From contig NZ_CACRUY010000007.1 in the NCBI RefSeq assembly GCF_902652685.1, forward strand, positions 1 through 64,000: a DNA stretch of 64,000 nt, in the 5' to 3' direction. Positions 36,654 through 54,104 of the stretch are shown here, in pieces. The position numbers were made by a program, and so were the translations under genes. The notes under the pieces were generated by a model. It worked only from the letters and a program-made list of their open reading frames with translations, did no database searches and had not been told where the DNA came from. The first letter of the stretch is position 1. Each line of letters opens with the position of its first letter. This DNA is from Mycobacterium sp. Marseille-P9652 (GTDB lineage Bacteria > Actinomycetota > Actinomycetes > Mycobacteriales > Mycobacteriaceae).

Positions 36654-39035
36654 ATGCGTTCCGCGCGGAGAACTTCGCCCCTGCTGCGGTGGACGGTGAC
36701 CGGCGTCGGCGTCCTGCTCGTCGGCTACCTGGCCGTACTGGCGTTGTGGCCGTGGATCATTGATGCGCTGCCGCCCTGGCTCGCGTGGTTCGGCCGGCCC
36801 GGCTCGATGGCCACGCTCGCCGTCATGGTGGCGGTGCTGGTCGCGGCGTGTGTGTTGACGTTCCGCTCGGGCGGCAACCACCGGCTCGTCGGGGTGTCCT
36901 TCACCGTCATCGCGGTCCTGGTGACCATGGACGCGGTGCTGGGCCTGGCCTCGTACTGGTACTGCCACGACGCCAACCACCCCGCCTTCTTCACGCCACT
37001 CATGGCGACGGCGCAGTTGGTAAAGGGCAGCATCGGCGACTACTCACTGAGCGGACGCACCTGTCCGAATCCCACGCCCGTCGGGCTGGAGCTGGCGCGG
37101 ATCGCCGCGCTGGCGGCCATCTTCACCGGTCTGGGCGGGGTTGTGGTGGGCGTCTTCCGGTCGCAGGTCGACCGGCTGCGCGCCAACCTCGCCGACTCGG
37201 TCGCCGTCATCGTGGGCGTCGACGACGACACGCAATCCATGATCAGTGCGGTCGCCCGGACGCTCGACCGCCGCACCACGCTGGTGGTCCTCACCGGCGC
37301 GGGCGACGACCGCGTCCAGCGCGTCCGCCGCCAGGGCGCCAAGGTGGTGCTGGTCGACTTCAACGCGCCGTCCACCCTCGTGTCGCTTCGGCTGTGGCGC
37401 AACCTTTCCCGGCTCTACCTGATGGCGCCCGACCCGGCGATCAACCTGATGTGGCTCGATCTGATCAGCCGCCGGCTCGCCGAGGTCGCCCACAAGCAGC
37501 GGCTGCCGCTCATCGTGCGCATGGACGACCCCTGGCTGGCCGAGGCGTGGCGCGCCCAGCAGTTCGGCGGCTCCGACACCCGCTGGGCGGCCGATGTGGT
37601 CGGCAAGTTCGAGGTGACCGCCGGCCGGCTGCTCGACGACATCATCGCCACGGGCCAAACCAGGCACGTATTCGTCTGCGGCACTTCCCAATTGACCCTG
37701 GCGCTGTGCGCCAACCTGACCCAGCGCGCGCTCGAGCGGGAGTTCTACACCCCGCCCGGCGCCACGCCGTTGCCCGCCCTCACCCTGGTCGAGCGGGACG
37801 CGGACGAATACCTGCGCGATCACGAGTTCTATCGGCAGCAGGCCGGTTTCGTATCGGACGGGCCGACCATCGACGCCATCGCGGAGTCGCCCACGATACC
37901 CACGCTGCTCAAGCTCATCGGCGACGCCGATCCCGCCACCAGCGCGGTGATCCTCGTCGATGCGCGCGCCGCGACGACCTCCACCCGGCTGGCCGCCCGC
38001 TACCCCGAGATGCCCGTCTACGCATCGGATCTCAACACCAGCATCGCCGACGACTCGATTCAGGTCGTCGGCATGCTGCAGTCCTACTCCCTCGTGCTGG
38101 ACACCCGCGAGGGGCAGGTCCAGGACGCCTGGGAGCGTGCCGCCAGGCTGATCCACGAGCGTTACGTGTCGACGATCGACCCGGGCGCCCCGCGATCCGC
38201 GGCGGCGATGCCGTGGTCCGAACTCAACGAGTTCTACCGCGGCTCCAACCGCCGTCAGGTGCGAAACGCCCTGTGGATGGTCGAGCAGATCGCCGGGCAC
38301 ACCTGGAACACCTGGGGCAGCCCGCCCACCCAGCTGTCGGCCCGCGACATGGCCGGGCTGCCGGCGCTGGAACAGCTTGCGCTGATGGGCTTCGACCGCG
38401 GTTCGGCTCTCAGCATGGCCAAGGCGGAACACGAGGACTGGTGCCGCTACTACCGGCACAACGGATGGAAATACGGCACGCCCCGCGACGACTCCCGGAA
38501 GATCCACGACAAGCTGGTCGACTGGTCCGTCGTGGAGAGCACGCCCGACCTACTCAACGCCGCGGTGCGGAGCCTGGCGGGCACCCTGTGGAGCCTGCGG
38601 CAACTGGGTTTCCGGTCGCGGCCGCTGTGGCAGTCCTTCACTCGTTCCGGGACGGTCTCCGCCGAGCAGCACAGCAGCCCCTGGACGTGGACATCGGATT
38701 CCGGGCACACCATGCGCGCCGACGCCGGGGACTGGGCGGTGCACGAGGACGGCAAGACGTGGTCGGTGCGCGACGACATCTTCCGGGAGACCTACGAACC
38801 GGCCGGCGACGGGCGCTGGCAGCGCAAGGGCCGGGTTCAGGCGCGGCCGGCACACCCCGGAGAGGTCGTCAACACGTTGGAGGGCCCCAACACCGCCGCC
38901 GAGGGCGACTGGATCGTCCGGGGTGAGGGCGGCGAGCAATGGCCGGTTCCCGGTGCCGAATTCGCCCGTCGCTACGCCGAACTCCCGCCGCCCGCGGACG
39001 CTCGCGTTCCCGACGACGGCGACGGACCCCTATGA
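36654..39035 (+). CDS. Membrane protein with TrkA_N (Rossmann) and RyR domains
   Basis: 793 aa. Four hydrophobic segments at about 13-35, 51-69, 78-99 and 147-167, the loop between the third and fourth holding G-S-I-G-D-Y and Cys residues. Then a Rossmann unit at about 180-260 (S-V-A-V-I-V-G-V-D-D-D-T) and a second at about 340-460 (H-V-F-V-C-G-T-S-Q-L-T-L), as in RCK/TrkA gating domains. Around residues 560-660 lies a RyR-type module: M-A-K-A-E-H-E-D-W-C-R-Y-Y, then N-G-W-K-Y-G. The tail (670-793) is Trp/Gly rich. Start has GGGAGG before it. The layout suggests a ligand-gated membrane channel or sensor. Absent from this spot in M. tuberculosis. Followed 118 bp later by the TIR gene. Confidence 0.75.
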   Translation: MRSARRTSPLLRWTVTGVGVLLVGYLAVLALWPWIIDALPPWLAWFGRPGSMATLAVMVAVLVAACVLTFRSGGNHRLVGVSFTVIAVLVTMDAVLGLASYWYCHDANHPAFFTPLMATAQLVKGSIGDYSLSGRTCPNPTPVGLELARIAALAAIFTGLGGVVVGVFRSQVDRLRANLADSVAVIVGVDDDTQSMISAVARTLDRRTTLVVLTGAGDDRVQRVRRQGAKVVLVDFNAPSTLVSLRLWRNLSRLYLMAPDPAINLMWLDLISRRLAEVAHKQRLPLIVRMDDPWLAEAWRAQQFGGSDTRWAADVVGKFEVTAGRLLDDIIATGQTRHVFVCGTSQLTLALCANLTQRALEREFYTPPGATPLPALTLVERDADEYLRDHEFYRQQAGFVSDGPTIDAIAESPTIPTLLKLIGDADPATSAVILVDARAATTSTRLAARYPEMPVYASDLNTSIADDSIQVVGMLQSYSLVLDTREGQVQDAWERAARLIHERYVSTIDPGAPRSAAAMPWSELNEFYRGSNRRQVRNALWMVEQIAGHTWNTWGSPPTQLSARDMAGLPALEQLALMGFDRGSALSMAKAEHEDWCRYYRHNGWKYGTPRDDSRKIHDKLVDWSVVESTPDLLNAAVRSLAGTLWSLRQLGFRSRPLWQSFTRSGTVSAEQHSSPWTWTSDSGHTMRADAGDWAVHEDGKTWSVRDDIFRETYEPAGDGRWQRKGRVQARPAHPGEVVNTLEGPNTAAEGDWIVRGEGGEQWPVPGAEFARRYAELPPPADARVPDDGDGPL

Positions 39036-39153
39036 CGGCCGAGTTTGCGCCATGCCGAAGGCCCAGACACTGATACGGTATCGGCGCGTGTGCAACAGCC
39101 GCACGCAGGCTTTCGCCCGTTTCGTTCGATGCGGCTCACTCTAGGAGACTGCG

Positions 39154-40662
39154 ATGGCGCTGTTCATCAGCTATTCGAGCCAGGACAGGTTGACCGTCGA
39201 TGCGCTGACGAACGCGCTTCGCAAAGCGCAGCAACAGGTGTGGTTCGACCAGGAACTCGGGGGCGGCGACTCCTGGTGGAACAAGATCCTCGAGCAGATC
39301 CGCCAATGCGACGTGTTCGTGGTCGCGCTGTCCAACAACTGGCTGCAGTCCAAGCCCAGCCAGGCCGAACTGCGCTACGCGCAGGCGCTGCACCGGCCGA
39401 TCCTGCCCGTGCGGATCGGTGACATCGACAGCATGCGGGTGAATCCCCTTGCGACGCTGCAGATCATCGATTACCGGGAGCCCACCGTCGACGCCGGCAT
39501 CCAATTGGTGACCGCGGTGCACGCGCTGCAGCGAAACCCGGCGCCACTGCCGGATCCGCTCCCCGACGAGCCGCCGGTGCCGTTCGGCTACATCACCCGG
39601 CTCGGCAACACCCTCGCCGAGAAGGAGCTCAGCCCCCAGCAGCAGATGCAACTCCTGGTCGAGTTGCGATCGGGGCTTGACGAGGACGGGGACGACCCGA
39701 GCGCCCGCGGCGACATCGCCCAGCTCCTGCGCATGCTGCGCCTGCGCCACGACGTGACGTATCGAACCCGCACCGAGATCGACAACGTGCTGGCCGAGAT
39801 CGAGGCCAAGGACGGCCCACCGGGGGCCCACCCGGCCCCGGCCGCCGAGGCCGCGACGACCGCCGCGAAGCCGAGCGCCCCGGCCGCCCCCTCGGCGGCT
39901 CCCGCTACCGCGCCGTCCAGCGGCGGGTCGAACAAGCGACTGCTTCTGATCGGCGGGGCGGTCGTTGCCGTGATCGTCGCCGTCGCAATCGTGGTCGTCT
40001 TGGCCACCCAGGGCGGCAAGTCGAAGCCGGCGTCCAAGGCCGGTCCAGCCTCGACGACCTCGGCGCCGGCGGGCGCGGCGAACACCAACGTCACGGACGC
40101 CGGGAGGCTCGACTCCTACCTGGTCGGCGCCGAGGACGTCGGCGCGATCGTGGGCGAGCCGAATCTCGTCGTGTCGGAGAAGGCGAGCGCGATGCGTTCA
40201 CCCAGGTGGGCCCTGTCCAACCCCGATTGCCTGGGCGCCTATGAGCCCATGGCGGACGCCGCGTACAAGGGCAGCGGCTACACCGCCGTCGCCGGCCAGG
40301 CCGTCCACAGTCCCGGTGAGGAACCGGCGCACCGGATCTTCGAATCCGTGGTCGCGTTTCCGTCGGCCGACAAGGCCGGTGCGTTCGTCCAGGGCTCGGC
40401 GGACAGGTGGAAAGCCTGTGCGGGGCAGATGGTGACAACCACCTACGGCGGCAAGACCTACGGGTGGAAATTCGACGCCCTCGACGGCACCCCGCCGCGG
40501 ATCGCCCAGCAGCGGACGCAGGCGGACGGCACCCGGATCTGCCACCACGTGTTGCGGGCGGCGTCGGCGGTGGTCATCGACGTGCTGCTGTGCGGACCCG
40601 ATTCGGAGGCGGGTCAGGCGGGCCGGATCGCGGAGCAGATCTCGGCGAAGGTGGCGCAATAA
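39154..40662 (+). CDS. TIR domain protein with membrane helix and PknH-type extracellular sensor domain
   Basis: 502 aa. Residues 1-130 are a TIR domain (M-A-L-F-I-S-Y-S-S-Q-D, then D-Q-E-L-G-G-G-D-S-W-W); Glu72 in K-P-S-Q-A-E-L-R sits where TIR NADases have their catalytic Glu. Residues 140-230 are helical and charged, 230-262 Ala/Pro rich. A membrane helix spans about 264-286 (LLLIGGAVVAVIVAVAIVVV). From 312 to 502 is a PknH_C-like sensor domain with four Cys (P-D-C-L-G, K-A-C-A-G, I-C-H-H-V, L-L-C-G-P) able to form two disulfides. So an outside sensor may control a cytosolic TIR. GGAG-containing ribosome site at 39142-39147. TIR domains in bacteria mostly serve immune NAD+ cleavage; here the fusion suggests envelope signalling. 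Confidence 0.8.
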   Translation: MALFISYSSQDRLTVDALTNALRKAQQQVWFDQELGGGDSWWNKILEQIRQCDVFVVALSNNWLQSKPSQAELRYAQALHRPILPVRIGDIDSMRVNPLATLQIIDYREPTVDAGIQLVTAVHALQRNPAPLPDPLPDEPPVPFGYITRLGNTLAEKELSPQQQMQLLVELRSGLDEDGDDPSARGDIAQLLRMLRLRHDVTYRTRTEIDNVLAEIEAKDGPPGAHPAPAAEAATTAAKPSAPAAPSAAPATAPSSGGSNKRLLLIGGAVVAVIVAVAIVVVLATQGGKSKPASKAGPASTTSAPAGAANTNVTDAGRLDSYLVGAEDVGAIVGEPNLVVSEKASAMRSPRWALSNPDCLGAYEPMADAAYKGSGYTAVAGQAVHSPGEEPAHRIFESVVAFPSADKAGAFVQGSADRWKACAGQMVTTTYGGKTYGWKFDALDGTPPRIAQQRTQADGTRICHHVLRAASAVVIDVLLCGPDSEAGQAGRIAEQISAKVAQ

Positions 40663-40679
40663 GGGTCCTGACATGGTGC

Positions 40680-40728
40680 GGCCCCCGAGCAAAGCTCCCG
40701 ATTGGACGGACCGGGAAGCTCGGGGGCC
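40680..40728 (+). terminator. Strong hairpin after the TIR gene
   Basis: GGCCCCCGAGC (40680-40690) pairs perfectly with GCTCGGGGGCC (40718-40728), with an inner stem AGCTCCCG/CGGGAAGCT. No T-run follows. Likely ends the TIR transcript and marks the last chromosomal structure before the integrated element. Confidence 0.65.
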
Positions 40729-40887
40729 GGGTGGCTGCGGGGAATTCGCCAGCGCAATCTGCCGGTTATTCCAAGCCACTGCTGCTAGCGCGCAGCCACC
40801 TCACATGTCCATGAAGCTATCAAATTCTTGGACTAACGATCCGGTGGCCTTAGCGCCCTGAGCTGCTGTTATGGGGCGTAAATCCAC

Positions 40888-40898
40888 TTCCGTTTCAC
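40888..40898 (+). repeat. TTCCGTTTCAC copy left of integrase
   Basis: 11 bases identical to the arms of the inverted repeat at 42118-42163. Lies 29 bp before the integrase ATG; a candidate arm-type integrase site. Confidence 0.5.
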
Positions 40899-40926
40899 GG
40901 ACAGCGCTCCATGTCACAATAACTGC

Positions 40927-41811
40927 ATGAACGCATCTTTGCTCACAGCGCTACTCCCCTCCTGGCGGCTCGCCATGGAGGGCAACAAGTCACCCGGCAC
41001 AATCACCACCTACACCTATGCCGTGACGGTGTACCTGGAGTGGTGCGAACGGCTCGAACGACCAGCCCTCGACCGCGACTCGCTGCGGGCCTGGATTGCC
41101 GACATGCTCGGCAGCCTGTCTGCCTCGACCGCCCGTATCCGGCAGCAGGCCGTCAAGAGCTATGCGGCCTGGCTTCATGAGGAAGGTGAGATCGACGCAA
41201 ACCCGTTCACGGGCGTGGCACCCCCGAAGCTCTCCGCGAAGGTCACCGAGGCCCTACGCGACGACCAAGTGGCGGCCATGATCAAAGCCTGCAAAGGAAC
41301 GTCTCTAGCAGATCGCCGCGACGAAGCGTTAGTGCGGTTCATGGCAGAGACCGGCACCCGCGCACAAGAGACGGTCGGAATCCTGCTGGCCGAGACGGAC
41401 CTCGCCGCACGCCGCACCATCGTCCGTAAAGGCAAGGGGCGGAAGGAACGAGTGGTTCCATTCAGCAGGGAGTGTGCAGAGGCTATTGACCGATACCTGC
41501 GAATGCGGCGGCGACTGAATATGGCCATGGAAGGCCCGCTCTGGGTAGGGGTTGGCGGAAAGTCGTTCGGGTACTACGGATTACGCAAGACACTGCAACA
41601 ACGGGCTGAGAGCGCCTCTGTGCCCAATTTCCATCTGCACCTGATGCGGCACACTGCCGCAACACGTTGGTTGCGCCAGGGGGGCAGCGAGGGTGGTCTG
41701 ATGGCCATCGCTGGATGGGACCAGCGCAGCATGTTGGACCGCTACACTCGGGCCAGCGCCACCGACAGGGCGCTCAGCGAGGCACAGACCCTTAGCCTCG
41801 GCGCTTTCTAG
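40927..41811 (+). CDS. Tyrosine recombinase/integrase
   Basis: 294 aa, XerC/D size. Core-binding SAM-like domain at about 5-90; catalytic domain at about 105-290 with Arg (T-G-T-R-A-Q-E), Lys near K-G-K-G-R-K-E, H-L-M-R-H-T (His/Arg) and nucleophile Tyr273 in L-D-R-Y-T-R-A. All key residues are present, so it is probably active. It stands at the left end of the inserted block and is flanked by the TTCCGTTTCAC repeats. Its stop overlaps the convergent small gene by 20 bp. Confidence 0.92.
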   Translation: MNASLLTALLPSWRLAMEGNKSPGTITTYTYAVTVYLEWCERLERPALDRDSLRAWIADMLGSLSASTARIRQQAVKSYAAWLHEEGEIDANPFTGVAPPKLSAKVTEALRDDQVAAMIKACKGTSLADRRDEALVRFMAETGTRAQETVGILLAETDLAARRTIVRKGKGRKERVVPFSRECAEAIDRYLRMRRRLNMAMEGPLWVGVGGKSFGYYGLRKTLQQRAESASVPNFHLHLMRHTAATRWLRQGGSEGGLMAIAGWDQRSMLDRYTRASATDRALSEAQTLSLGAF

Positions 41812-42037
41812 CGCGGGCCGATTTCAGGGCCAGCCGTTTAAAGTAGGCCGTCTTCAGGTTCTCGGCGCGCTTCATGCGTTCTTCTGGCGGTAGCACACTG
41901 TCGGGGTCTACCTCACGCTCAAACTTGGCCATCATGGCGGCGCGGGCCGGTGCGGTGCGGGCTGCGCGATCTTCTGTGCGCGCCCATGATTCGTGGGAAG
42001 CGATGGATGCGAGTAGCTTTCGTTCAGTCTGGTTCAT
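41792..42037 (-). CDS. Small conserved protein of mycobacterial mobile elements
   Basis: 81 aa from ATG 42037 (a TTG at 42079 would add 14). Charged, helical: M-N-Q-T-E-R-K-L-L-A-S-I, S-W-A-R-T, then P-P-E-E-R-M-K-R-A-E-N-L and a Lys/Arg-rich end (LALKSARARKRRG). Reads like a small DNA/RNA-binding or regulatory protein, but no family can be named. Convergent and overlapping with the integrase; sits inside the repeat-bounded unit 40888-42163, so it may work with the integrase. Confidence 0.6.
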   Translation of the reverse strand: MNQTERKLLASIASHESWARTEDRAARTAPARAAMMAKFEREVDPDSVLPPEERMKRAENLKTAYFKRLALKSARARKRRG

Positions 42038-42117
42038 CACATACGCGCCGAACAATGTAGGCGCGAGGGACTCGTCCAACGACTGAGGTCATGCTGCCAT
42101 CCTCCCATGCCAGTTTT

Positions 42118-42163
42118 GGCGTGAAACGGAAACAGGTGGCCGAATTATCTTCCGTTTCACGCC
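42118..42163. repeat. 14-bp perfect inverted repeat right of the integrase unit
   Basis: GGCGTGAAACGGAA (42118-42131) and TTCCGTTTCACGCC (42150-42163) with an 18-nt loop. Its 11-bp core is the same as at 40888-40898. Candidate integrase/excisionase arm sites or an operator for the divergent small gene. Confidence 0.6.
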
Positions 42164-42858
42164 GAGGCCGAACGCCTACACTGGTCCTGTCAGTCGCGGC
42201 AGCAACCGCTGATTAATATCGAAATCGGAAGGCATGCAGTACAATTACAAGTAGAAGAGATGAAAGATGTTGGACATCCAGGTGATCGAGAGTCTTCTCT
42301 CCACCGTCCTAAACCTTGAACTCTAAATCTTCTTCCCATGGACCCGCGTAACGCTATCTCCGCACGAGGGGTACGGTGCAGCTACGCCGCGCGGCGCGGT
42401 CTCCACAACTGGTGATCACCAACATGTTTGGTGTGACAATCGAATAGAAAATGCTCCCCCGAACTACCTGGGTAAGCCAAGGCAAGCGGGGAGAGTTAGC
42501 TGGCGGATGGAGCAACCCCGGTCAACGTTGGCCCGAGTCACGGGCTGGGGTTCGTCGTGTCTCCGAGAGGACTGTTTCGTATCAAGCCTGCTATCTCGGA
42601 CACGGCTAGGCAGCACGAAGCGCGCTGCCAGGATTGGCTTGTCCATCTCCGCAATGGAATTGACAAGACCCAGAGGACTGCCCCACATCGGTGCCCAGGC
42701 AGCCGCAAGAGTTCTGGACCAAGCGCGTGCCCCGACCCCTGGGGCGCAGAAATAGCGAGACTCGCCACCGATAACGACGCAAATGATTTCGGACTGGCGA
42801 GTCACAACTACAGCGAGCCAGTTCCGCTCGCCACAACGGCAGGGAGAGAGTCGAAGCC
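42164..42858. other. AT-richer spacer with no clear gene
   Basis: About 700 bp. The only coding candidate I would mention is a 19-codon frame at 42267-42326 (starts M-L-D-I-Q-V-I-E-S, ends L-N-L-E-L) behind a purine-rich GAAGAGATGAAAG. Longer frames here show no protein-like pattern. Confidence 0.4.
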
Positions 42859-43086
42859 ATGAGGGGCAACGTCCGTACCGCCGCGAAGCGGCATATGAAA
42901 GAGGACCGTCGTCAGGCAGCTAAAGAGAAGGCCGATCTAAGCAGGGCCAAGAACAACAACTGGGGTCCACTAGAACAATCGGCGCGGCAGGCACTCGCCG
43001 CTGAGCGTCGCCGCCAGGGGATACCAGACACCCCACTCCCAAGCCAGTGTTGGCGCCGAACAAAAGATTTGGAGAAAGCGACATGA
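42859..43086 (+). CDS. Small basic hypothetical protein
   Basis: 75 aa, strongly charged and helical (K-R-H-M-K-E-D-R-R-Q-A-A-K-E-K-A-D-L). Its TGA overlaps the next ATG (ATGA), which points to coupled translation and supports it as a gene. Purine-rich AGGGAGAGAG precedes the start. Function unknown; likely a partner of the HTH protein. Confidence 0.55.
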   Translation: MRGNVRTAAKRHMKEDRRQAAKEKADLSRAKNNNWGPLEQSARQALAAERRRQGIPDTPLPSQCWRRTKDLEKAT

Positions 43087-43286
43087 CACAGACAGATCGA
43101 CTACTCGGCGTTCGGGAAGTCGCCGGGCTGCTCGGCGTATCACCTGGCACCGTCTACAGCATGCGGTACAGGGGCACCGGCCCGGCCGGGTGGCGGCGTG
43201 GCAAGCGGCTCGTGTTCCGCCGCAGCGACGTAGAGAATTTCCTTATCCGCGAGTGTGAACGGACGCTGAAGGGTGAGGGTGGTTGA
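43083..43286 (+). CDS. HTH DNA-binding protein, excisionase/AlpA-like (MerR-type helix)
   Basis: 67 aa. L-L-G-V-R-E-V-A-G-L-L-G-V-S-P-G-T-V-Y and R-R-G-K-R-L-V-F-R-R-S-D-V form the excisionase-type winged HTH (PF12728). Such proteins direct integrase toward excision or act as regulators of element genes. GGAG at 43073-43076 precedes the ATG. Overlaps the previous gene by 4 nt. Confidence 0.85.
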   Translation: MTQTDRLLGVREVAGLLGVSPGTVYSMRYRGTGPAGWRRGKRLVFRRSDVENFLIRECERTLKGEGG

Positions 43287-43305
43287 GCGCCAAAGGCTTT
43301 GGCAG

Positions 43306-43322
43306 ACCCTCCGACGGAGGGT
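43306..43322 (+). terminator. Short stem-loop after the HTH gene
   Basis: ACCCTCC, loop GAC, GGAGGGT; a 7-bp perfect stem 20 bp after the stop. No T-run. Confidence 0.5.
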
Positions 43323-43878
43323 GTCGCGACCAGGGCTTTTAGCGAAAAGCGGTCTCGCGCATCAATATCGTCAAAGTTGGCGGCGGACCCGACCTGCGGT
43401 TTTGCAGAAAACCTCCCGACCGGATATGCCCGGGGAGAGAGAGGCAGATATGCTCGAGGTGTCAGGATTTCCGGCGCCTTGGGGTACCCCCCAGGCAACC
43501 CAAATGCACTGTGCCGCAGTCGCATAGAGAAGGGGTGAGCTAGAGGCGGGGCGTGGCGCTACAGCGGGCGCACTCGCGTAGGTGATGCGCGACGCACAAC
43601 CGCTGCCGGTCCGTCCAGGCTCATGGATGCGCCGATGAGGCGCTACGTGCGGATACAAGAGCCGGTGGGCAGTCCCAATGAGCCAGCAGACGGGTAGCCG
43701 GTTCGACGAAAGCGAAAGAGCCGTTCGAGGCTCAGTGGGTGTTGTTGAAGGAACTTGGCTTGGCCTGAGAGTCGGAACATGCCCGCCAGGCTGCTGCATC
43801 GAGGCGGCGGTCGGGGTTGCGAGGGGATCGCTTCCTGTCTGCCCGCTAGCGTTGCGCATTACAGATCAAGGAGTGCAT
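43323..43878. other. Spacer, no supported gene
   Basis: About 555 bp. Frames present are low-complexity or out of keeping with coding; one 25-codon frame near 43450 follows GAGAGAGAGG but has no other support. Probably holds the promoter of the UDG-like gene. Confidence 0.4.
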
Positions 43879-44463
43879 GTGAGCCTCTTCGAGACGATGG
43901 AGCCATACGCCTGGCATGGAAGTTGGGCAGTCTGGGGATCGTGGGATGCCATACCTCCGTTTGACCGGCACGGCAACCTCCGATTCCCAACGCACGAAAC
44001 CCAGCACCTCAACAGACTGCACGGCCAGGCCGTGATCCTCGGACTCAACCCAGCGGGCGATGGGCAACCCCCGGTGCGCATACCCGGGCGCGAATGGGCC
44101 AACTTTCACACGCCGGGCGTACACAACGACCACTTTCTTGCCACAGCGTTTTACGGAACGTGGCTTTGGGGTTGCTACATGACAGACCTCATACCAGAGA
44201 CACATCAAAGCAAGTCGGCAAAGGTGAATCCCGGCGATAGGGATGTCGAAGCCTTCATGCAGGAAGTGTCCTTGCTTGGGGAACCAGACCAGTTGTTCGT
44301 GTGCCTGGGTGACAAGAGCTACAAGGCGCTGTCCAGGTCATTACCTGCGGATTCGCGGGTTGTGAAAGTTCCGCACTACAGCGCCTCCAATGCGCGTGTG
44401 CATAAGGGACGGCCAGAGGTGTATCGAGAGTTCTGCCAGCAAGCGTTGGCTGAATACCTCTGA
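43879..44463 (+). CDS. Uracil-DNA-glycosylase-fold-like protein
   Basis: 194 aa. GTG start with AAGGAG 7 nt upstream (a longer frame to 43678 lacks support). The pattern suggests the UDG superfamily: first motif A-V-I-L-G-L-N-P-A-G-D-G (compare G-x-N-P-G), a middle C-Y-M-T-D-L-I-P, F-V-C-L-G-D-K-S-Y strand, and a last motif V-P-H-Y-S-A-S-N in place of the usual H-P-S-P-x-S. Motif residues differ from known classes, so base specificity or even glycosylase activity is uncertain. As cargo of a mobile element it may act on modified or foreign DNA (inference). Confidence 0.6.
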   Translation: MSLFETMEPYAWHGSWAVWGSWDAIPPFDRHGNLRFPTHETQHLNRLHGQAVILGLNPAGDGQPPVRIPGREWANFHTPGVHNDHFLATAFYGTWLWGCYMTDLIPETHQSKSAKVNPGDRDVEAFMQEVSLLGEPDQLFVCLGDKSYKALSRSLPADSRVVKVPHYSASNARVHKGRPEVYREFCQQALAEYL

Positions 44464-44559
44464 TCTGCCGCTCCGGGCCTAATTCCCGCTGCCTCACGCG
44501 AGGGACGCCATGATGGCCGTTGCTAGGTGGGAGAGGGTCTGTTGTGGGAGTCTGCTGGG

Positions 44560-47241
44560 GTGTCCGCTGATCCGGCGGCCACTGCTCCCTCGGGGGTGGT
44601 GACGTTTCTGTTCACCGACGTGGAGGGTTCGACCCGTCGGTGGGAAGCCGATGCGGACGGCATGCGGGTGGCACTGGCCGCGCACGACGAAGTGTTGCGC
44701 TCAGTGATCGACGCTCACACCGGCTTCCTGTTCAAACACACCGGCGACGGGGTGTGCGCGGCATTTAGTTCGCCGAAGGCAGCGGTCGATGCGGCGGTGG
44801 CCGCCCAGAGAGCACTGAAATTGCCGGTACGGATGGGCATCGCGACCGGGGAAGCCGAACTGCGCGACGGGGATTACTTCGGTGCGGTGCTCAACCGAGC
44901 GGCGCGGGTTATGGCCGCCGGGCATGGTGGGCAGATTCTTGTGGGCGAGTCAACAGCGGGTCTGCTCAGTGGTGTGGAGCTGGTGGATTTGGGGCCGCGA
45001 CGGTTGCGAGACCTACCCATCCCGGTCGGAGTGTTTCAGGTCCGAGCGCCGGGCCTGCAGGCAGACTTTCCCCCGTTGCGGGCGCTTGATGCTAGCCCGG
45101 GGAATTTGCGGCCTGTGAGCACGAGCTTTATCGGGCGTGAGTCGGAGGTCGCCGAGCTGCAATCGGCGGTGAAGGCTCATCGATTGGTGACGTTGACTGG
45201 GGCGGGCGGGGTCGGCAAGACCCGGCTGGCCACCGAGGTCGCGGCACGGGTAGCCGACGACTTTCCCGACGGGGTGTGGTTTTTCGACTTGGCTGCGGTG
45301 GCTGATCCGGCGGCGGTGCCCGACGCGGTGGCTGCGGTGTTGGGCATCATCCAGCAGCCGGGCAAGACGGTGACCGAGTCGGTGGCGTCGGCGTTGGAGG
45401 GCCGGGTGCGGCTGCTGGTGTTGGATAACTGCGAGCACGTGGTCGACGCGGCGGCCGATCTGGTTGAGGCGATCCTGGCCACTTCGGTGACGGTCAGCAT
45501 CCTGGCTACCAGCCGCGAAGGTTTGGGGGTCAACGACGAACAGCTCTGGCGGGTCCCGTCCCTCGACGTCAATTCTGGCAGCCAATCGGCTGCGGTGAAC
45601 CTTTTCCTCGACCGTGCTCGCAGCGTCGTGTCGGACTTCTCGCTGGGCCAGCACGGCGAGGCCGACGCGGTCGTGGAAATCTGCCGCAGACTCGACGGCA
45701 TCCCGTTAGCGATCGAGTTGGCGGCCTCGCGAATGGCGTCGATGACCGCACGCGAGGTCCGTGATCGTCTCGACCAGCGGTTCCGGCTGCTGGTCGGCTC
45801 CCGGCGTGGCCTGTCGCGCCACCACACCCTGCGGCACGCGGTGGCGTGGTCCTATGACCTGCTCGACGACGCGGAAAAGAAGCTGCTGGAGCGGTGTTCG
45901 GTGTTCGCGGGTGGATTCGATTTGCACAGCGCCTGCGCCGTTGCTGGATTTGATGGCCACGACGACTTCGCCGTGCTGGATCGGCTGGACGCCTTGGTGC
46001 GCAAGTCGTTACTGGTGGCTGACCGGTCTTCGGGGCGGACCCGGTTTTCGATGTTGGAGACGATTCGCGAGTTCGCTGAGGAGCAGCTCGTCTGCTCAGG
46101 CGCAGTAAATGAGGTGCGAACCGCGCATGCTCGCTATTTCGCCGGGCGCGAAGCCGACATCCTGGCCCTGTGGGACAGCGCCCGCCAGCGCGAGGCGTAT
46201 GACTGGTTCTCTGCTGAGTTAGCCAATTTGCGCACCGCGTTTCGATGGGCCACCGATGAAAGTGACCTCGACAGGGCCGTCACCATCGCAACGTTCGCAT
46301 CGTTTCTGGGTTATCTGGTGGAAAGTTATGAACCGATCACTTGGTCAGAAGAGCTGATCGAACCCGCTCGCGCCGTTGACCATCCCCGGCTGGCAGCTCT
46401 GTACACCATGGCGTCGAATTGCTATACGGCAGGACGGGTCGAGGCGGCGATTCGATACAGCGACGACGGAAGCAAAATCGTTCTCGGCAGGAGTTGCGAT
46501 GTGCTGCCGTACGGCTTCGAAGGCAACATCGGAGGTGCTTACATGTACGTCGGGCATCCCGAACGGTGGGTCGAAATATGTCGTGCCGAGCTGCGTCGCC
46601 GCCGCGACGCAGCGGTCGGCATCCGGGCATCTCTGGTTATGGGGCTGGTGTTCGCCGGTTCGGGTGAAGAAGCGAGGGTTGTCGCGGCTGGCCTGATTGA
46701 GGCAGCGGAATCAACGGAGAACCCGTGCGTGGTGTCCTTCGCGCTCTCCGCTGACGGCCTCGCGTTCAGCGACACAGACCCTGCCCGCGCACTCGATGCC
46801 TTACGACGGAGCCTGGCAATCGCCCAAGACAGCGGCAATCGCTTCATCGAGTCCATGATTGCGTATAACCTGTCTCGCCTAGAGGCCACGCACGGCGACA
46901 TGGCGTCCGCGTTCGACTGTCTCAGTTTGGCAATCCGGAACATGCACGACTCGGGCGACACCACCACGATGCGCACGCCTCTGGCTCTCCTCGCCACGGT
47001 CTTGGACCAGCTCGGACGCTACGAGTCGGCGGCCACAATTGCCGGGTTCGCTCTAAGTCCCCTCACCGAAATGCTGTACCGGGAGGTAAGCGCCGGAGTT
47101 GCACACCTCCGCGAAGTCTTCGGCGATCAGACCTACGAATCACTCGCACGCAAAGGCGGGGCGATGACCACCGCAGCGATGGTGACCTACGCCTACGACC
47201 AAATCGACCAGGCCCGAACAGAACTCGAACACCCTGGTTGA
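44560..47241 (+). CDS. Class III cyclase-STAND ATPase regulator
   Basis: 893 aa. Residues about 10-170: nucleotidyl cyclase with F-T-D-V-E-G-S-T and H-T-G-D-G-V (metal Asps), Lys in F-K-H-T-G-D-G, and L-N-R-A-A-R (Asn/Arg), but Ala where the purine-reading Asp normally sits. Residues about 200-480: NB-ARC/STAND ATPase (T-G-A-G-G-V-G-K-T, L-V-L-D-N-C-E-H, G-I-P-L-A-I-E-L-A-A). The rest is TPR-like helical. No LuxR HTH at the end, unlike Rv0386/Rv1358-type relatives. GTG start after GGGAG; other in-frame GTG at 44527. Role: cAMP-linked signalling or regulation. Confidence 0.88.
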   Translation: MSADPAATAPSGVVTFLFTDVEGSTRRWEADADGMRVALAAHDEVLRSVIDAHTGFLFKHTGDGVCAAFSSPKAAVDAAVAAQRALKLPVRMGIATGEAELRDGDYFGAVLNRAARVMAAGHGGQILVGESTAGLLSGVELVDLGPRRLRDLPIPVGVFQVRAPGLQADFPPLRALDASPGNLRPVSTSFIGRESEVAELQSAVKAHRLVTLTGAGGVGKTRLATEVAARVADDFPDGVWFFDLAAVADPAAVPDAVAAVLGIIQQPGKTVTESVASALEGRVRLLVLDNCEHVVDAAADLVEAILATSVTVSILATSREGLGVNDEQLWRVPSLDVNSGSQSAAVNLFLDRARSVVSDFSLGQHGEADAVVEICRRLDGIPLAIELAASRMASMTAREVRDRLDQRFRLLVGSRRGLSRHHTLRHAVAWSYDLLDDAEKKLLERCSVFAGGFDLHSACAVAGFDGHDDFAVLDRLDALVRKSLLVADRSSGRTRFSMLETIREFAEEQLVCSGAVNEVRTAHARYFAGREADILALWDSARQREAYDWFSAELANLRTAFRWATDESDLDRAVTIATFASFLGYLVESYEPITWSEELIEPARAVDHPRLAALYTMASNCYTAGRVEAAIRYSDDGSKIVLGRSCDVLPYGFEGNIGGAYMYVGHPERWVEICRAELRRRRDAAVGIRASLVMGLVFAGSGEEARVVAAGLIEAAESTENPCVVSFALSADGLAFSDTDPARALDALRRSLAIAQDSGNRFIESMIAYNLSRLEATHGDMASAFDCLSLAIRNMHDSGDTTTMRTPLALLATVLDQLGRYESAATIAGFALSPLTEMLYREVSAGVAHLREVFGDQTYESLARKGGAMTTAAMVTYAYDQIDQARTELEHPG

Positions 47242-47283
47242 GTTGCGCTAGCCGCGTGTCCAACGCAAAAGCGCCGCAGCCTC

Positions 47284-47889
47284 TCAATCAGCAGTTTGTT
47301 CGGCCAAGACGCGGTATACCGTCGCCCGACTCACGCCGAGGGCATTGGCAATCGTGCTCGCCGACTCACCATTAGCGTGCATCCGCTGCGCCAGACCGGC
47401 CTTCTTCGCGTCAAGCGCCTTGGGTCGTCCGATGTGCTGGCCGCGTGCCCGACGCGCTTCCCGTGCCGCTGTACGGCGCTCACGGCCGAGTTCCAGTTCA
47501 AGTTCCGCCAGACTGGCAAGCACCCCGGCCACCATGCGGCCTGTGGCGTTGGACGTATCGATTCCCTCGCGCAACGAGCGGAGAACGATGTTTCGCTCGC
47601 CAAGCTCGCGAATAGTCATCATGACCTCGGCGGCATTACGGCCCAACCGATCTATTCCGACCACGACGATTGCGTCACCGGGTCGTGCGTAGTCCATTAA
47701 GGCGGCGAGGCCGGGCCGCTGCTCGCGGGTTGACGTTCCAGAAAGCTTGTCTCTGTAAATCCGATCCGGATTCACGCCCGCTGCTGTGAGGGCGTCGAGC
47801 TGCTGGTCCAAAGATTGGTGGCCGGTTGAGACGCGGGCGTATCCGATTTGGACGCCCGTGGTCGTGGCAGTCGTTGCGTTCACGATCAC
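47284..47889 (-). CDS. Serine recombinase (resolvase/invertase)
   Basis: 201 aa. Catalytic Ser21 in Y-A-R-V-S-T-G-H-Q, D-R-L-G-R-N and E-R-R-T-A-A motifs, long E-helix, and a C-terminal Hin-like HTH (STIANALGVSRATVYRVL). Size and layout match small Tn3-resolvase/invertase types. GTG start. Convergent with the STAND gene (42 bp) and divergent from the first cyclase; the intervening region has inverted TGTCTCAGAA copies that may be its sites. Confidence 0.9.
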   Translation of the reverse strand: MIVNATTATTTGVQIGYARVSTGHQSLDQQLDALTAAGVNPDRIYRDKLSGTSTREQRPGLAALMDYARPGDAIVVVGIDRLGRNAAEVMMTIRELGERNIVLRSLREGIDTSNATGRMVAGVLASLAELELELGRERRTAAREARRARGQHIGRPKALDAKKAGLAQRMHANGESASTIANALGVSRATVYRVLAEQTAD

Positions 47890-47894
47890 CAGTC

Positions 47895-48027
47895 TGTCTC
47901 AGAAGTATCTCAGGCACAAGGTTGTGCGACTCTTAATTTGAGGCAAGTTTTGCGACACACCCATCTGGGCGTTTCTCTCCGGCTGTAGCACTCGCTGCGT
48001 ACCGTCGGAATCTAAGGTTCTGAGACA
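47895..48027. repeat. Inverted TGTCTCAGAA / TTCTGAGACA pair
   Basis: TGTCTCAGAA at 47895-47904 and its exact complement at 48018-48027, 113 bp apart, between the recombinase start and the first cyclase. A related TGAGACA.AC occurs at 49746-49755 before the second cyclase. Could be recombinase subsites or a regulator site. Confidence 0.45.
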
Positions 48028-48126
48028 TACCGACTCGGGGAACCAAGTAGGTTCGTCGTTTGTCTTGTCAACGTTGCCCTTCCTCTGCGAACGAGAGTCG
48101 GCTCGCTTCACGTTTAGTCTTCCGGC

Positions 48127-49626
48127 ATGGATCGCATCTGGCAGTGGGCGTGGGATCGGTACGGACCGAGGTACTCGTGGGCGATGTGGGCGATGGCGTC
48201 TTCCAGTGCCCTGGCGATCTACCTGTTCGAGTCGTTTGTCGTCGTGGCTTTAGAGCAGTCTCATCGTTACGTCGAGGCAGCCGCCATCACGGTGGTCGTC
48301 GTCGCGGTCTTCGGTTACGTGAGTATTCTTCCGGGCCAAGGTGTCGCGCGCCGTGTGGAGCGGTGGGCAGCCGGTTACGAGGTCGATCGGGAAGCGGCAC
48401 TGGCTGCCACCTACACGTTTGCTCGCAGGTTCTTTGCGCGAACGTTCGCCGCTATGGTCGCGTCTGCCGCTCTGCTAGCGGTTGCAATTGGTGGGATTAC
48501 CGGAGCGGCGGGGTCGCGGCTGGCTCAGTATGGGGTCTGGGGTGCTTTCGTCGGATTCTCCGCGATGCTGGTTGCTGGGCACAGCTTGGTGGAAGCGATG
48601 CTGCGGCCAGCCAGAATCACGATTGCGGGGGGCGCGGGGATCGGCGATGTCTTGCCCCGCTCGCGTCCGACTGTCGCTGCGTGGTCCATGATGGCCCTGC
48701 TCTCGACGGCGTTCTCCTACGTCGTCGTAGGTGTGATGCTGGGAGCCATATTCCACCGAGTCGCTCAGGTTCCTGTGCTTGCTGTTGTGATTGGGTGTGC
48801 GGTGACACTCGGCTTTGCGGTGCCGATTACCGTCTGCGTCGGATACTCACCGTTGTTGAGGCCCCTACGAGACCTTGCCGAAGGCACTGAGCGTGTCGCG
48901 GCGGGCGACTACAGCCAACGCCTGCCGGTGGTTCAGGACGATGACCTCGGCGCGCTGGCCGCGTCTTTCAACCGCATGCAGGCGGGTTTGGCTGAGCGAC
49001 AACGACTTCACGCCGCGTTCGGCACGTACGTCGACCCCGCCCTCGCCATAAGGCTCCTTGAGCAAGGGGACGATGTATTCACCGGTGAGCGCAGAGAAGT
49101 GACGGTGATGTTTGTCGACATCCGCGACTTCACCCCATTCGCGGAGGCCAACACCGCCGAAGACACCGTCGCCCGACTCAACGCGTTGTTCGAGATCGTG
49201 GTGCCTGCGGTGGTTGATGCGGGTGGGCATGTCAACAAGTTCCTCGGAGACGGCGCATTAGCCGTGTTCGGCGCACCCAACGACCTAGCAGACCATGCCG
49301 AGTCGGCTTTGACTGCCGCCGTGAGGATTCACCGCCTGGTTGCCGAACGCTTCGGTGGAGAGCTTCGGATTGGCATCGGGATCAACACAGGCACCGTGAT
49401 CGTCGGAACCATCGGCGGCGGCGGCAAGCTGGAGTTCACCCTCATCGGGGATGCCGTCAACGTCGCGGCCCGCGTCGAGCAACTCACCAAGACCACGGGC
49501 GACACGGTTCTGCTCACCCAACAGTGTGTTGATGCTCTGCCGTCGCGACCGCCCGGACTTATCGACCGGGGATTGCATGTCCTGAAGGGAAAGTCAGCTT
49601 CCGTGCAAGTCTTCGGCCTCGACTAA
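48127..49626 (+). CDS. Membrane adenylate cyclase (6 TM-HAMP-class III), first copy
   Basis: 499 aa. Six hydrophobic segments within 1-250, a HAMP region (about 250-300; R-P-L-R-D-L-A-E-G-T-E-R-V-A-A-G-D), then a class III cyclase (about 310-490): F-V-D-I-R-D-F-T and K-F-L-G-D-G (metal Asps and substrate Lys), G-D-A-V-N-V-A-A-R (substrate Asp, Asn, Arg). All catalytic residues for ATP to cAMP are present. Similar to the Rv1318c-Rv1320c/Rv3645 family. TAGTCT at 48115-48120 is 6 nt before the ATG: leaderless. Confidence 0.92.
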   Translation: MDRIWQWAWDRYGPRYSWAMWAMASSSALAIYLFESFVVVALEQSHRYVEAAAITVVVVAVFGYVSILPGQGVARRVERWAAGYEVDREAALAATYTFARRFFARTFAAMVASAALLAVAIGGITGAAGSRLAQYGVWGAFVGFSAMLVAGHSLVEAMLRPARITIAGGAGIGDVLPRSRPTVAAWSMMALLSTAFSYVVVGVMLGAIFHRVAQVPVLAVVIGCAVTLGFAVPITVCVGYSPLLRPLRDLAEGTERVAAGDYSQRLPVVQDDDLGALAASFNRMQAGLAERQRLHAAFGTYVDPALAIRLLEQGDDVFTGERREVTVMFVDIRDFTPFAEANTAEDTVARLNALFEIVVPAVVDAGGHVNKFLGDGALAVFGAPNDLADHAESALTAAVRIHRLVAERFGGELRIGIGINTGTVIVGTIGGGGKLEFTLIGDAVNVAARVEQLTKTTGDTVLLTQQCVDALPSRPPGLIDRGLHVLKGKSASVQVFGLD

Positions 49627-49863
49627 GACACCAACGTGCGGGTCAACGTCACCCGCTAAGGGGCGGTGAAACAGGCGTCTGCCGCTTCACCATAGCGGTC
49701 CCTACTTCCGCTGCAGCTTTCGAGAAATTCACACAACGAAAGTATTGAGACAGACGGGACCCGACGCGGCCAACGGGGTCCGTCGTTCTCTCGCAATCAG
49801 CGTGACACTGCGTAGAGCCGGAAGTATCCGCCCGTCGAGGCGCTAAACGTTTAATGTCGCGGG

Positions 49864-51369
49864 ATGGATCGCATTTGGCAGTGGGCGTGGGATCGGTACG
49901 GGACGCGCTATTCCTGGGTGTGTTGGCTCGTCGCATTTGCGTCACTGTTGCCGACCTTCCTGCTTTGGTCGTTTGTTGTTGTCGCTTACGAGAAGTCAAG
50001 TCACTACGTCGAGGCGGCAGTGGTCACCGGCGTCGCCGTAGTGGTGTTGGCGTTCGTGGTGAATCTTCCCGGTGTGGGACCGATCCGTCTGGTTGAGCGG
50101 TGGGCGGCTGGCTGCGCGGTCGATCGTGCGACGGCACTCGGAGCGACATACGCCTGGGCACGCGCAGCGGGGGTTCGAGGGTTGTTGATCACGCCGGTTT
50201 GGGCCGTGGTGCTGTTGATGGTTGTCGGCGTGATCGCCGGGGCGAGCGGGTCGCGGCTCGTCCAGTACGGGACTTTGGCCGTGATTGTGGGCATCGCTAC
50301 ATATCTCATCGGTATGCACACCGGTTTGGAGGGAGGAATGCGACCGGCGCGGGCCGCTCTCGCGGGGGACACGGGGATTGGTGACTCTCTGCCGCGCTCC
50401 CGTCCGACTTTTGCTGCGTGGCTGAACCTCTCAATCGCTGCTTGTGTGTTTGCGTTCACGACTGGGGGCGCCATGCTGGGGGTCGTGTTGGACCGGGGCG
50501 GGGAGCTACCCGTCGTTGCCGTTGTGATCGGGGGCGCGGTGACGCTCGGCTTCGGAGTACCGGTCACCGTGGGTGCGGCTGTCTCGCCGTCGCTTCGGCC
50601 CATTCGCGACCTTGCCGAAGCGACTGTGCGGGTGGGGGCCGGTGATTACAGCCAACGCCTTCCGGTGGTTCAGGACGATGATTTGGGTGCGCTGTCGGCG
50701 TCGTTCAATCGGATGCAGGCGGGGTTGGCTGAGCGGCAACGACTTCAGGCCGCGTTCGGCACCTACGTTGACCCGGCGTTGGCGGCGCGGCTGCTGGAGC
50801 AGGGCGACGATGTGTTCACCGGTGAGCGCCGCGAAGTGACAGTGATGTTCATCGACATCCGCGACTTCACCCCGTTCGCGGAGGCCAACACCGCCGAGGA
50901 CACCGTCTCCCGCCTCAATGCCTTGTTCGAGATCGTGGTGCCTGCCGTTGTCGACGCCGGTGGGCATGTCAACAAGTTCTTGGGTGACGGGGCGCTGGCC
51001 GTTTTCGGCGCACCCAACGACCTAGCCGACCATGCCGACTCGGCTTTGTCTGCTGCCGTGATGATTCACCGCCTTGTTGCCGAGCGGTTCGGTGGGGAGC
51101 TTCGGATTGGTATCGGCATCAACACCGGGGTGGTGATCGCCGGAACCATCGGTGGTGGCGGCAAGCTTGAGTTCACCCTCATCGGTGACGCCGTGAACGT
51201 GGCAGCTCGCGTCGAGCAACTGACCAAGACCACCGGCGACGCTATCCTGCTCACCCAGCAGTGCGTTGGTGCTCTGGCTTCGCGACCCTCTGGACTGATC
51301 GACCGAGGACTCCATGTGTTGAAGGGGAAGGCCGCCGCCGTCCAGGTGTTCGGCATAAATCAAGAGTGA
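49864..51369 (+). CDS. Membrane adenylate cyclase (6 TM-HAMP-class III), second copy
   Basis: 501 aa, close paralogue of the preceding gene: same opening M-D-R-I-W-Q-W-A-W-D-R-Y-G, almost identical HAMP-cyclase half with all catalytic residues, but a divergent membrane half. That contrast suggests selection for different input sensing with shared output, or gene conversion of the catalytic half. TAATGT at 49852-49857 is 6 nt before the ATG (leaderless). Downstream spacer resembles the spacer after the first copy. Confidence 0.92.
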   Translation: MDRIWQWAWDRYGTRYSWVCWLVAFASLLPTFLLWSFVVVAYEKSSHYVEAAVVTGVAVVVLAFVVNLPGVGPIRLVERWAAGCAVDRATALGATYAWARAAGVRGLLITPVWAVVLLMVVGVIAGASGSRLVQYGTLAVIVGIATYLIGMHTGLEGGMRPARAALAGDTGIGDSLPRSRPTFAAWLNLSIAACVFAFTTGGAMLGVVLDRGGELPVVAVVIGGAVTLGFGVPVTVGAAVSPSLRPIRDLAEATVRVGAGDYSQRLPVVQDDDLGALSASFNRMQAGLAERQRLQAAFGTYVDPALAARLLEQGDDVFTGERREVTVMFIDIRDFTPFAEANTAEDTVSRLNALFEIVVPAVVDAGGHVNKFLGDGALAVFGAPNDLADHADSALSAAVMIHRLVAERFGGELRIGIGINTGVVIAGTIGGGGKLEFTLIGDAVNVAARVEQLTKTTGDAILLTQQCVGALASRPSGLIDRGLHVLKGKAAAVQVFGINQE

Positions 51370-51577
51370 GAGGCGCGGGTCGAACTGACCCGTTGAGGGC
51401 ATCACTTTGGCTGCGGCTTTCGAGAACCTCACAACGAAACTTTCGGACATCTCCGTACGACCAACGTCACGTCTAATCGGATCGCACCGGGGCGGAGCTG
51501 GACCAGCGTTTCGTTTACAGACCAGACGGACCGCGCGAAGGTAAAGTTTCATTTCGTGAAGGCGCGGGACGCCCGGT

Positions 51578-52054
51578 ATGACCTTTAACGCGTCGGAAAC
51601 GGGATGGTTGCTCGGCGGTCGCAGCGGCCTTCGAGCGTATGGGCCGATGAATTGGCAAGATGTCAACGCTAGCTTCGTCGCGAAGCTTCCCCTTGAGGCG
51701 ACCGGCTTTCAGTCAGGCGAGGCCGAGTTTGTCTACCGTATCGGCAAGAAACGTGCCTCTGAGCCGACGTTGCTTGTCACTCTGCGCCAGATTTGCATTT
51801 ATCGACTAGATGTCAATGGCACGCATCGCGATGGAAGCAAACTGCACCAATTTGTAACGCACATTCAGCGGCGGCCCGCCTTCAGCGCTCCGGAGTCCTT
51901 CTACCCAAACCCAACCGGCGTTCCCACCGTCCAGGTGGGACAACGTGTCACACCTCAGGTCTATCGTGCGATCCTGGCAGCGTTCGCCGCACCGATCGGG
52001 ATGGATATTCTTGATGTGCAGTGGAGTGATCCGCCAGCAGGGAGGCAGCCATGA
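51578..52054 (+). CDS. Hypothetical protein, first gene of a coupled pair
   Basis: 158 aa, soluble mixed alpha/beta (L-L-V-T-L-R-Q-I-C-I-Y-R-L-D-V-N-G). No family recognised. Its last codons overlap the next gene by 4 nt (ATGA), so the two form a unit. Ribosome site weak. Lies within the element after the cyclases. Confidence 0.6.
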   Translation: MTFNASETGWLLGGRSGLRAYGPMNWQDVNASFVAKLPLEATGFQSGEAEFVYRIGKKRASEPTLLVTLRQICIYRLDVNGTHRDGSKLHQFVTHIQRRPAFSAPESFYPNPTGVPTVQVGQRVTPQVYRAILAAFAAPIGMDILDVQWSDPPAGRQP

Positions 52055-52800
52055 AAGTCATCGACGCGATTGTCAAGGGCTACCGCGAGACTCTGAAGGC
52101 AGTGCCGTATGGCGACGGGCACTTGGTCAGCCTCCCAACTACCTTTGCGTCCGGAAATCTAGTGACGGTGCTGGTCACGATTGATGACGGGGTAGTGACA
52201 GTTACCGACCGGGGTTTGGCCGCTGACGAACTCTCGGATGCGGGCCTCGACTTCTCGTCTGGCCGTCTCGCGCGGTCGTTCGCGGCTGTACGTGACTCAA
52301 CAGGGCTTCCGCCGATGTTCGGGGCCGAAGAATGGGAACTCACGGCGGCGGCGGATGCCGCTGACGTAGCGGTCGCCATCCAGGCCGTCGCGGACGCTGC
52401 GATCCGTGCGGAGGGTTTGCGGGCCTTGGCCGGGTCAAGGAGGTCCGCCACTTTCGCCGACCGCGCGATAGATCGCGTAGCCGCTAGGACACCCGTGGTC
52501 CCCCGCGCCAGGATGCCCGGGAAGTATGGGCCGGGCCGCCTCGTCACGCTCTCTTACGCGGGTCGCGATAGTGAGAACTACTACCTCCAGGCTTTGGCAG
52601 GACGGGACAGCGACACCAGGATTCGTTCGTACGACCACGCCTCCGGCTTGTTCCTAGGAGCAACGCCGAGTCTTAATCACCGCGTGGCGCTCTTACAAAA
52701 GGGCGACTGGGAACCGTGGCAGGTGCATAACCTCACAGAGGTCTGCAAAGTAATCGATGAAACCGAAGCTGATCAGTTCATCGCAGAAACAGCGGCATAG
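52051..52800 (+). CDS. DUF1828-like hypothetical protein, second gene of a coupled pair
   Basis: 249 aa. Residues 25-75 (S-L-P-T-T-F-A-S-G-N-L-V-T-V-L-V, D-D-G-V-V-T-V-T-D-R-G) resemble the DUF1828 pattern of a beta-sheet reading D-D-G. The C-terminal half (150-249) is a second domain (Y-A-G-R-D-S-E-N-Y-Y-L-Q-A-L). DUF1828 proteins are common on phages and plasmids; function not settled. Coupled to the gene before it. Confidence 0.55.
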   Translation: MKVIDAIVKGYRETLKAVPYGDGHLVSLPTTFASGNLVTVLVTIDDGVVTVTDRGLAADELSDAGLDFSSGRLARSFAAVRDSTGLPPMFGAEEWELTAAADAADVAVAIQAVADAAIRAEGLRALAGSRRSATFADRAIDRVAARTPVVPRARMPGKYGPGRLVTLSYAGRDSENYYLQALAGRDSDTRIRSYDHASGLFLGATPSLNHRVALLQKGDWEPWQVHNLTEVCKVIDETEADQFIAETAA

Positions 52801-52870
52801 CCCCTTCAGATCATTCTCTGCGTCTACCCAGACACATCCGAAGGGGACCGCTTCTCCGTTGGCCCGGACA

Positions 52871-54033: not shown

Positions 54034-54039
54034 CCACAC

Positions 54040-54078: not shown

Positions 54079-54104
54079 GGCTGGTTCACACCTACGATGT
54101 GGGT

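Follow-up and report, generated by a model that had tools for sequence, protein, structure and literature searches.

Two neighbouring genes in a 64,000-nucleotide stretch of DNA from Mycobacterium sp. Marseille-P9652 (contig NZ_CACRUY010000007.1, positions 1 to 64,000; the window) are best explained, with moderate probability, as encoding a single signalling system, made up of an enzyme/receptor and an effector, that uses a nucleotide derived from nicotinamide adenine dinucleotide (NAD+). Gene one encodes a channel-like membrane protein (P0001) bearing a ryanodine receptor (RyR) domain, and gene two a receptor-like TIR protein (P0002). This explanation is built on the domain make-up, the TIR glutamate and the RyR contact residues as read from sequence, on the predicted channel/RCK fold and on the near-obligate linkage of the two domains.

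Co-occurrence across Mycobacterium was one of the refutation tests set beforehand by the original prediction for this locus, and the two genes do co-occur. In a survey of 148 genomes of the genus using the PF02026 (RyR) and TIR_2 profiles (69 RyR and 149 TIR rows, all used), matches were present in 60/148 and 79/148 genomes, respectively. A TIR lies within 8 kb of 66 of the 69 RyR matches; the first count gave 65, to which genome G121 was added when a later search found a TIR at 4.2 kb, the nearest having been placed at 28.9 kb. In the first count, the RyR–TIR distance was 1.5 kb or less for 41 of the 69, whereas uniform placement would be expected to leave about 0.5 RyR matches within 10 kb of a TIR. 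RyR is near-obligately linked to TIR within Mycobacterium, far beyond chance. Among the unlinked RyR matches, that of G032 neighbours a partner-like open reading frame (ORF) of the TIR-nSTAND1-WD40 family that runs off the contig end, and that of G089 is a decayed gene, in pieces with internal stops, beside which pieces of gene two are found. Both domains occur in 59 genomes, RyR alone in 1 (G089), TIR alone in 20 and neither in 68. TIR is present in 59/60 RyR genomes versus 20/88 RyR-free genomes, and 20/79 TIR genomes are without RyR; at the level of gene content, the dependence is one-way, RyR genomes holding TIR and TIR also occurring alone. In a control with 25 genomes (128 listed TrkA_N rows with E values up to 2.5e-15, weaker rows being left out; 40 TIR places), a TIR was found within 8 kb of 0/124 TrkA_N places outside RyR genes and of 4/4 inside them.

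The source genome has two RyR places and two TIR places in all, which form two pairs. The second pair, on contig C79 (locus L093, G000:C79, 1214-4430), consists of convergent TIR-PknH and TrkA_N-RyR genes, and its TrkA_N-RyR protein (P0004) has 565 residues with two hydrophobic stretches near the N-terminus; no plasmid match to P0004 was found at E 1e-8. The linkage is very unlikely to stem only from a common location in defence islands or from inherited synteny: the order of gene one and gene two is indeed syntenic in the window's own group, but the 66 pairs include all four orientations (RyR followed by TIR, 39; convergent, 17; divergent, 9; TIR followed by RyR, 1), several partner designs exist, the source genome has a second, separate pair, and RyR-free TrkA_N genes do not share the association (0/124).

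In G075 and G115 (loci L100 and L101), mycobacterial genomes of very small size (3.27 Mb), both genes are present only as pieces with internal stops.

The partner designs were compared at named loci (L numbers), which are 80 retained from 105 relatives and supplied the 33 and 31 relatives of alignments A3 and A4. A TIR is found at 71/80 loci, 70 by a TIR profile built here and L156 by Pfam. TIR is followed by a membrane helix and PknH_C in one design and by nSTAND1-WD40 in another (about 1,360-1,430 residues, often with a patatin gene); a plain TIR is found in L092 and in Gordonia L165 and L169, TIR-NHL in L166 and TIR-WD40 in L156. On a 43-row tree of RyR proteins, the partner label, with 'none' and contig-cut included, changes 12 times. 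The tree was given 44 RyR proteins: 40 from the named loci, that of the window and three more, of which L136 was dropped; the contig-cut L163 and L167, and also L091, were given separate labels, and L170 was called STAND on TIR and weak WD40 matches only. The view that many relatives of gene one lack a TIR was abandoned, as the neighbouring protein of 1,360-1,430 residues has an N-terminal TIR before nSTAND1-WD40. FAD monooxygenase, TetR, patatin, SnoaL and GCV_T neighbours were also considered as constant partners, and none recurs constantly. In L076 and relatives, a gene for a patatin-like phospholipase lies between the RyR channel gene and the TIR-nSTAND1-WD40 gene, and one such patatin scores as a defence phospholipase/effector.

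The original prediction read gene one as four membrane segments, two RCK-like Rossmann units and an RyR module, and gene two as a TIR domain with Glu72, a membrane helix and a four-cysteine PknH-type domain. The former is borne out by the predicted model, fold matches and Pfam, and the latter by Pfam, hydropathy and conservation; the two PGDYG beta domains of gene one had been overlooked. The features of gene one are as follows.

36654..39035, + strand: gene one (P0001), RyR-bearing RCK channel-like membrane protein, 793 residues (ORF, Pfam, predicted model, fold matches)
36678..36746, + strand: membrane helix 1, residues 9-31 (predicted model, hydropathy)
36807..36869, + strand: membrane helix 2, residues 52-72 (predicted model, hydropathy)
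36885..36956, + strand: membrane helix 3, outer pore-helix candidate, residues 78-101 (predicted model)
36990..37022, + strand: short pore-like helix, residues 113-123 (predicted model, conservation)
37080..37190, + strand: membrane helix 4, long inner-helix candidate, residues 143-179 (predicted model, hydropathy)
37200..37601, + strand: first RCK-type Rossmann domain, residues about 183-316 (predicted model, fold matches)
37665..38093, + strand: second RCK-type Rossmann domain, residues about 338-480 (predicted model, fold matches)
38364..38603, + strand: RyR (R12-type) helical domain, residues 571-650 (Pfam, alignments)
38631..38981, + strand: two C-terminal beta domains, PGDYG (Pfam, predicted model)

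The RyR-like segment aligns to PF02026, scoring 30.4 bits against a curated cut-off of 27.4, and to solved R12 domains, which were recovered by both sequence (best E 1.2e-7) and fold. A chance RyR match is ruled out by the Pfam score together with these matches. The predicted model of P0001 matches the folds of TrkA/KtrA, CASTOR/DMI1, Slo1 and GsuK, although Pfam matches the first Rossmann domain to TrkA_N at E 0.078 only. Its pore-like part superposes on full-length GsuK/MthK; these alignments start at model residues 77-89, around helix 3, and that with GsuK covers residues 77-491 with a root-mean-square deviation of 12.9. In the model and its fold matches, P0001 shows the arrangement that characterizes RCK-gated K+ channels, with tandem RCK domains after the pore helices. 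Cys104 and Cys137, which flank the short pore-like helix, are invariant in 34 aligned rows.

Nucleotide sensing by prokaryotic RyR domains was reportedly proposed by Burroughs and colleagues in 2015. According to a preprint dated 29 May 2026, RyR domains of phages can bind or cleave the cyclic ADP-ribose (cADPR) isomers 2'cADPR and 3'cADPR, serving as sponges or glycosidases, and six of eight tested phage relatives bind these ligands without cleaving them (PMC13232231). The same text names H75, W78, H100 and D117 as the ligand-touching residues of phage RyDEP, with H75 and D117 as the catalytic dyad (PMC13232231). RyDEP was located in the phage collection and confirmed against PDB 35TM. His593, Trp596 and His618 of P0001 correspond to its H75, W78 and H100, which are conserved in 39/40, 40/40 and 36/40 aligned RyR domains, respectively; the four domains without H100 belong to TrkA_N-type proteins, including the second RyR protein of the source genome. 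The D117 column, where the alignment is loose, holds D in 13/40, N in 14 and other residues elsewhere; it is N in P0001, in which the RyDEP glycosidase dyad is consequently incomplete. With three contacts kept, the RyR domain of P0001 seems capable of accommodating an ADP-ribose-type ligand, but it is without the published dyad. Among the phage matches listed, no record covers 80% of P0001, and only RyR or PGDYG pieces are present; phages Aegeus and Baudelaire, isolated on M. chelonae, carry similar pieces with weak scores (E about 2), and DyoEdafos reaches only E 0.9 in the same search.

The sponge and glycosidase activities described in the preprint (PMC13232231) could suggest that the RyR protein is an off-switch that soaks up or hydrolyses the TIR signal at the membrane, with TIR acting through NAD+ loss or another effector. 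The conserved His, Trp and His contacts fit such a role. We consider it unlikely: the RCK tandem and pore-like helices would be left unexplained, Asn occupies the place of the catalytic Asp in P0001 and this position varies in the family, and TIR is found in nearly every RyR genome (59/60), yet 20/79 TIR genomes manage without RyR.

The features of gene two are as follows.

39154..40662, + strand: gene two (P0002), TIR receptor-like protein, 502 residues (ORF, Pfam, predicted model)
39154..39528, + strand: TIR domain, residues 1-125, with Glu72 at 39367-39369 (Pfam, conservation, fold matches)
39586..39813, + strand: conserved helical domain after TIR, residues about 145-220 (predicted model, conservation)
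39937..40008, + strand: single membrane helix, about residues 262-285 (hydropathy; the model has low confidence there)
40087..40659, + strand: PknH-type ectodomain (PF14032), residues 312-502, with four conserved cysteines

The Glu72 position is Glu in 32/32 aligned rows, and the ectodomain has both the PF14032 profile match and the conserved cysteines. No sigma-70 or terminator patterns were found around the two genes. Against seven relatives, the ratio of nonsynonymous to synonymous substitution rates (dN/dS) is 0.04-0.16 for the RyR part, 0.13-0.22 for RCK and 0.09-0.25 for TIR; for the ectodomain it is 0.25-0.56, with an identity of only 35-70%. Slow change in the enzyme and effector alongside fast change in the outer part is the pattern expected of a receptor system, though it does not indicate the cue.

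The same comparisons bear on the possibility that the order of events is reversed, RCK-RyR sensing a nucleotide or ion state and TIR being an NAD+-destroying effector. The TIRs of SPARTA and SARM1, which destroy NAD+, are among the nearest folds, and RCK domains bind nucleotides and ions. It is, however, the TIR protein whose ectodomain evolves fast, and the partner swaps alter the sensor part of the TIR protein, as expected if TIR acts upstream; a reversed order is therefore distinctly improbable.

In the explanation that we prefer, in which TIR is the signal-producing receptor and RyR the effector, a cue acting on the PknH-type ectodomain would activate the cytosolic TIR, which would convert NAD+ to an isomer of cyclic ADP-ribose, whether 2'cADPR, 3'cADPR or a related compound. 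Its binding to the RyR module of P0001 would, through the RCK gating ring, alter ion flow through the putative pore. In mycobacteria with TIR-nSTAND1-WD40, the sensor acting on a similar RyR protein would be cytosolic, an arrangement like that of an anti-phage system. The cADPR-type pair put forward by the original prediction is thus sustained in part, namely by the co-occurrence, the RyR alignment, the binding of cADPR isomers by phage domains (PMC13232231) and the conservation of three of the four contacts, whereas TIR NADase activity, the identity of its product with the ligand, ion conduction and the ectodomain trigger are what we infer from the sequences. By analogy with the TIR-STAND-WD40 and patatin variants and with phage-borne RyDEP, an anti-phage role is plausible; the PknH-type pair could equally serve in envelope stress.

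Both proteins are predicted to be membrane-bound and their genes are mostly adjacent, which would also accommodate gating by contact within a complex, with no diffusible signal and with ATP, ADP-ribose or another housekeeping nucleotide as the RyR ligand. R12 domains do bind adenine nucleotides, according to titles of structure entries with AMP-PCP or ATP and to the preprint (PMC13232231). Such contact gating is quite unlikely, as the partner TIRs vary widely, some resembling soluble STAND proteins, and the RyR of L182 is a separate small protein beside a TIR-PNP protein.

Several observations weigh against a TIR-made cADPR isomer acting on an RCK channel. R12 structure entries with AMP-PCP or ATP in the title are among the fold matches of P0001; the R12 fold also binds ATP analogues, and the ligand may therefore be another adenine nucleotide. 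The signature of the K+ selectivity filter is TVGYG-like, and residues 100-145 of P0001 contain none; the pore is a prediction. The surveyed genomes are related, so the counts overstate independence. There are also true exceptions to the linkage. G041 has an 18.1-kb contig on which the two flanks of its RyR each exceed 8 kb and contain no TIR; 12 TIR matches lie elsewhere in the genome. Of the named loci without TIR, L163, L167, L173 and L175 are beside a contig end and L139 is on a 9.6-kb contig, but L147 (a second copy), L148, L153 (the G041 genome) and L181 are exceptions within the visible flank. TIRs occur elsewhere in all five genomes tested (L139, L147, L148, L153 and L181), and in M. 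fragae (L181) there is a single TIR and a single RyR, on separate contigs.

The linkage is also weaker outside the genus. Within the same order, 43 genomes have RyR, 27 of them from other genera, and one locus per genome was fetched. A TIR is nearby at only 4/27 of these other-genus loci (L182 by Pfam; L196, L205 and L217 by profile). DUF4062-STAND is found at 7/27 (L197, L204 and L218 by Pfam; L201, L206, L210 and L211 by 77-79% identity to L197) and AAA_16 at 7/27 (L202, L203, L207, L208, L209, L212 and L213), and 9/27 have none of the three; in the latter nine, the Pfam scan of neighbours covered nine proteins of seven loci. L209 and L215 are on short contigs. At the AAA_16 loci, which belong to another family of the order, the ATPase gene is divergent beside the TrkA_N-RyR gene, and could represent a further type of sensor partner. 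DUF4062 is possibly related to TIR; with the profile comparison giving E 0.037 and a probability of 1.4%, it was not counted as TIR. In the wider phylum (15 of 296 genomes), 10 additional loci (9 genomes of other orders), several on short contigs, include two with TIR (L191 by Pfam, L190 by profile) and two with DUF4062 (L187 by Pfam, L188 by alignment).

Near 8950-11512 of L182, the stand-alone RyR protein directly follows a TIR-PNP_UDP_1 protein, and its RyR part is closer to animal R12 repeats (RyR2, E 1.2e-41) than is the window RyR (best E 1.2e-7). In L193, from another family of the order, an ORF with caspase and alpha-amylase domains (4875-7481) lies near the TrkA_N-RyR gene.

By analogy, the pair would work like Thoeris, with a TIR signal and an effector, and like RCK channels; it was filed under neither, because it lacks both ThsA domains and the K+ filter. 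As in Thoeris, a TIR protein with the catalytic glutamate (32/32) stands beside a protein with a nucleotide-binding domain. The Thoeris effector ThsA is of the SIR2-SLOG or TM-Macro type, whereas P0001 has no SIR2, SLOG or Macro domain by Pfam and no PADLOC match; the TIR here is also receptor-like, with a membrane helix and an ectodomain, and any defence role of the pair is putative. The TIR domains of SARM1, SPARTA TIR-APAZ, AbTir and ThsB have a sequence identity of only 14-27% to that of gene two, and PADLOC ThsB models match it only at E 9.4e-6. Compared with MthK, GsuK, Slo1, TrkA/KtrA and CASTOR/DMI1, P0001 is without the K+ filter signature and has two extra N-terminal helices and the appended RyR and PGDYG domains. 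It shares with animal ryanodine receptors a homologous R12 repeat on a channel, although its channel part is of the RCK kind, unlike the animal pore. It shares with phage RyDEP (PF02026; PDB 35TM) the Pfam family and the H75, W78 and H100 equivalents, but its RyR is a domain of a host RCK channel-like membrane protein beside TIR, and the D117 equivalent is not conserved. Gene two resembles PknH and TiME in its ectodomain, with TIR in place of the cytosolic kinase. Among the open-access matches listed, titles and abstract openings do not describe a pair of TIR and an RyR channel, and PMC9503650 does not mention RyR.

Gene two would be a membrane receptor joining a PknH-type ectodomain to TIR rather than to a kinase. 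It is quite possible, though short of probable, that mycobacteria and some relatives have a true pathway from cADPR through RyR to an RCK channel, a counterpart of the animal cADPR/RyR pathway and the target silenced by mycobacteriophage RyDEP. In such a pathway, modular TIR receptors, either envelope-sensing (PknH_C) or cytosolic (STAND-WD40), would produce a cADPR isomer, and this product would open a dedicated RCK channel via R12. The preprint notes that cADPR is implicated in RyR function and calls for studies of how it might act on animal RyR channels via R12 (PMC13232231). The pair presents the same R12 module on a channel-like protein beside TIR, is small enough for purification and reconstitution, and provides a specific candidate for what phage RyDEP targets in mycobacteria.

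Downstream of gene two, positions 40663-55015 of the window form a stretch of about 14 kb, mostly of lower guanine-plus-cytosine content (0.60-0.66), which begins with a tyrosine integrase (40927-41811) and lies between the TIR gene and those genes which, in relatives such as L042, come directly after it (clusters c7 and c5). This stretch looks like an integrated element. It also contains two similar tandem ORFs (48127-49626 and 49864-51369), which appear to be membrane adenylate cyclase-like.

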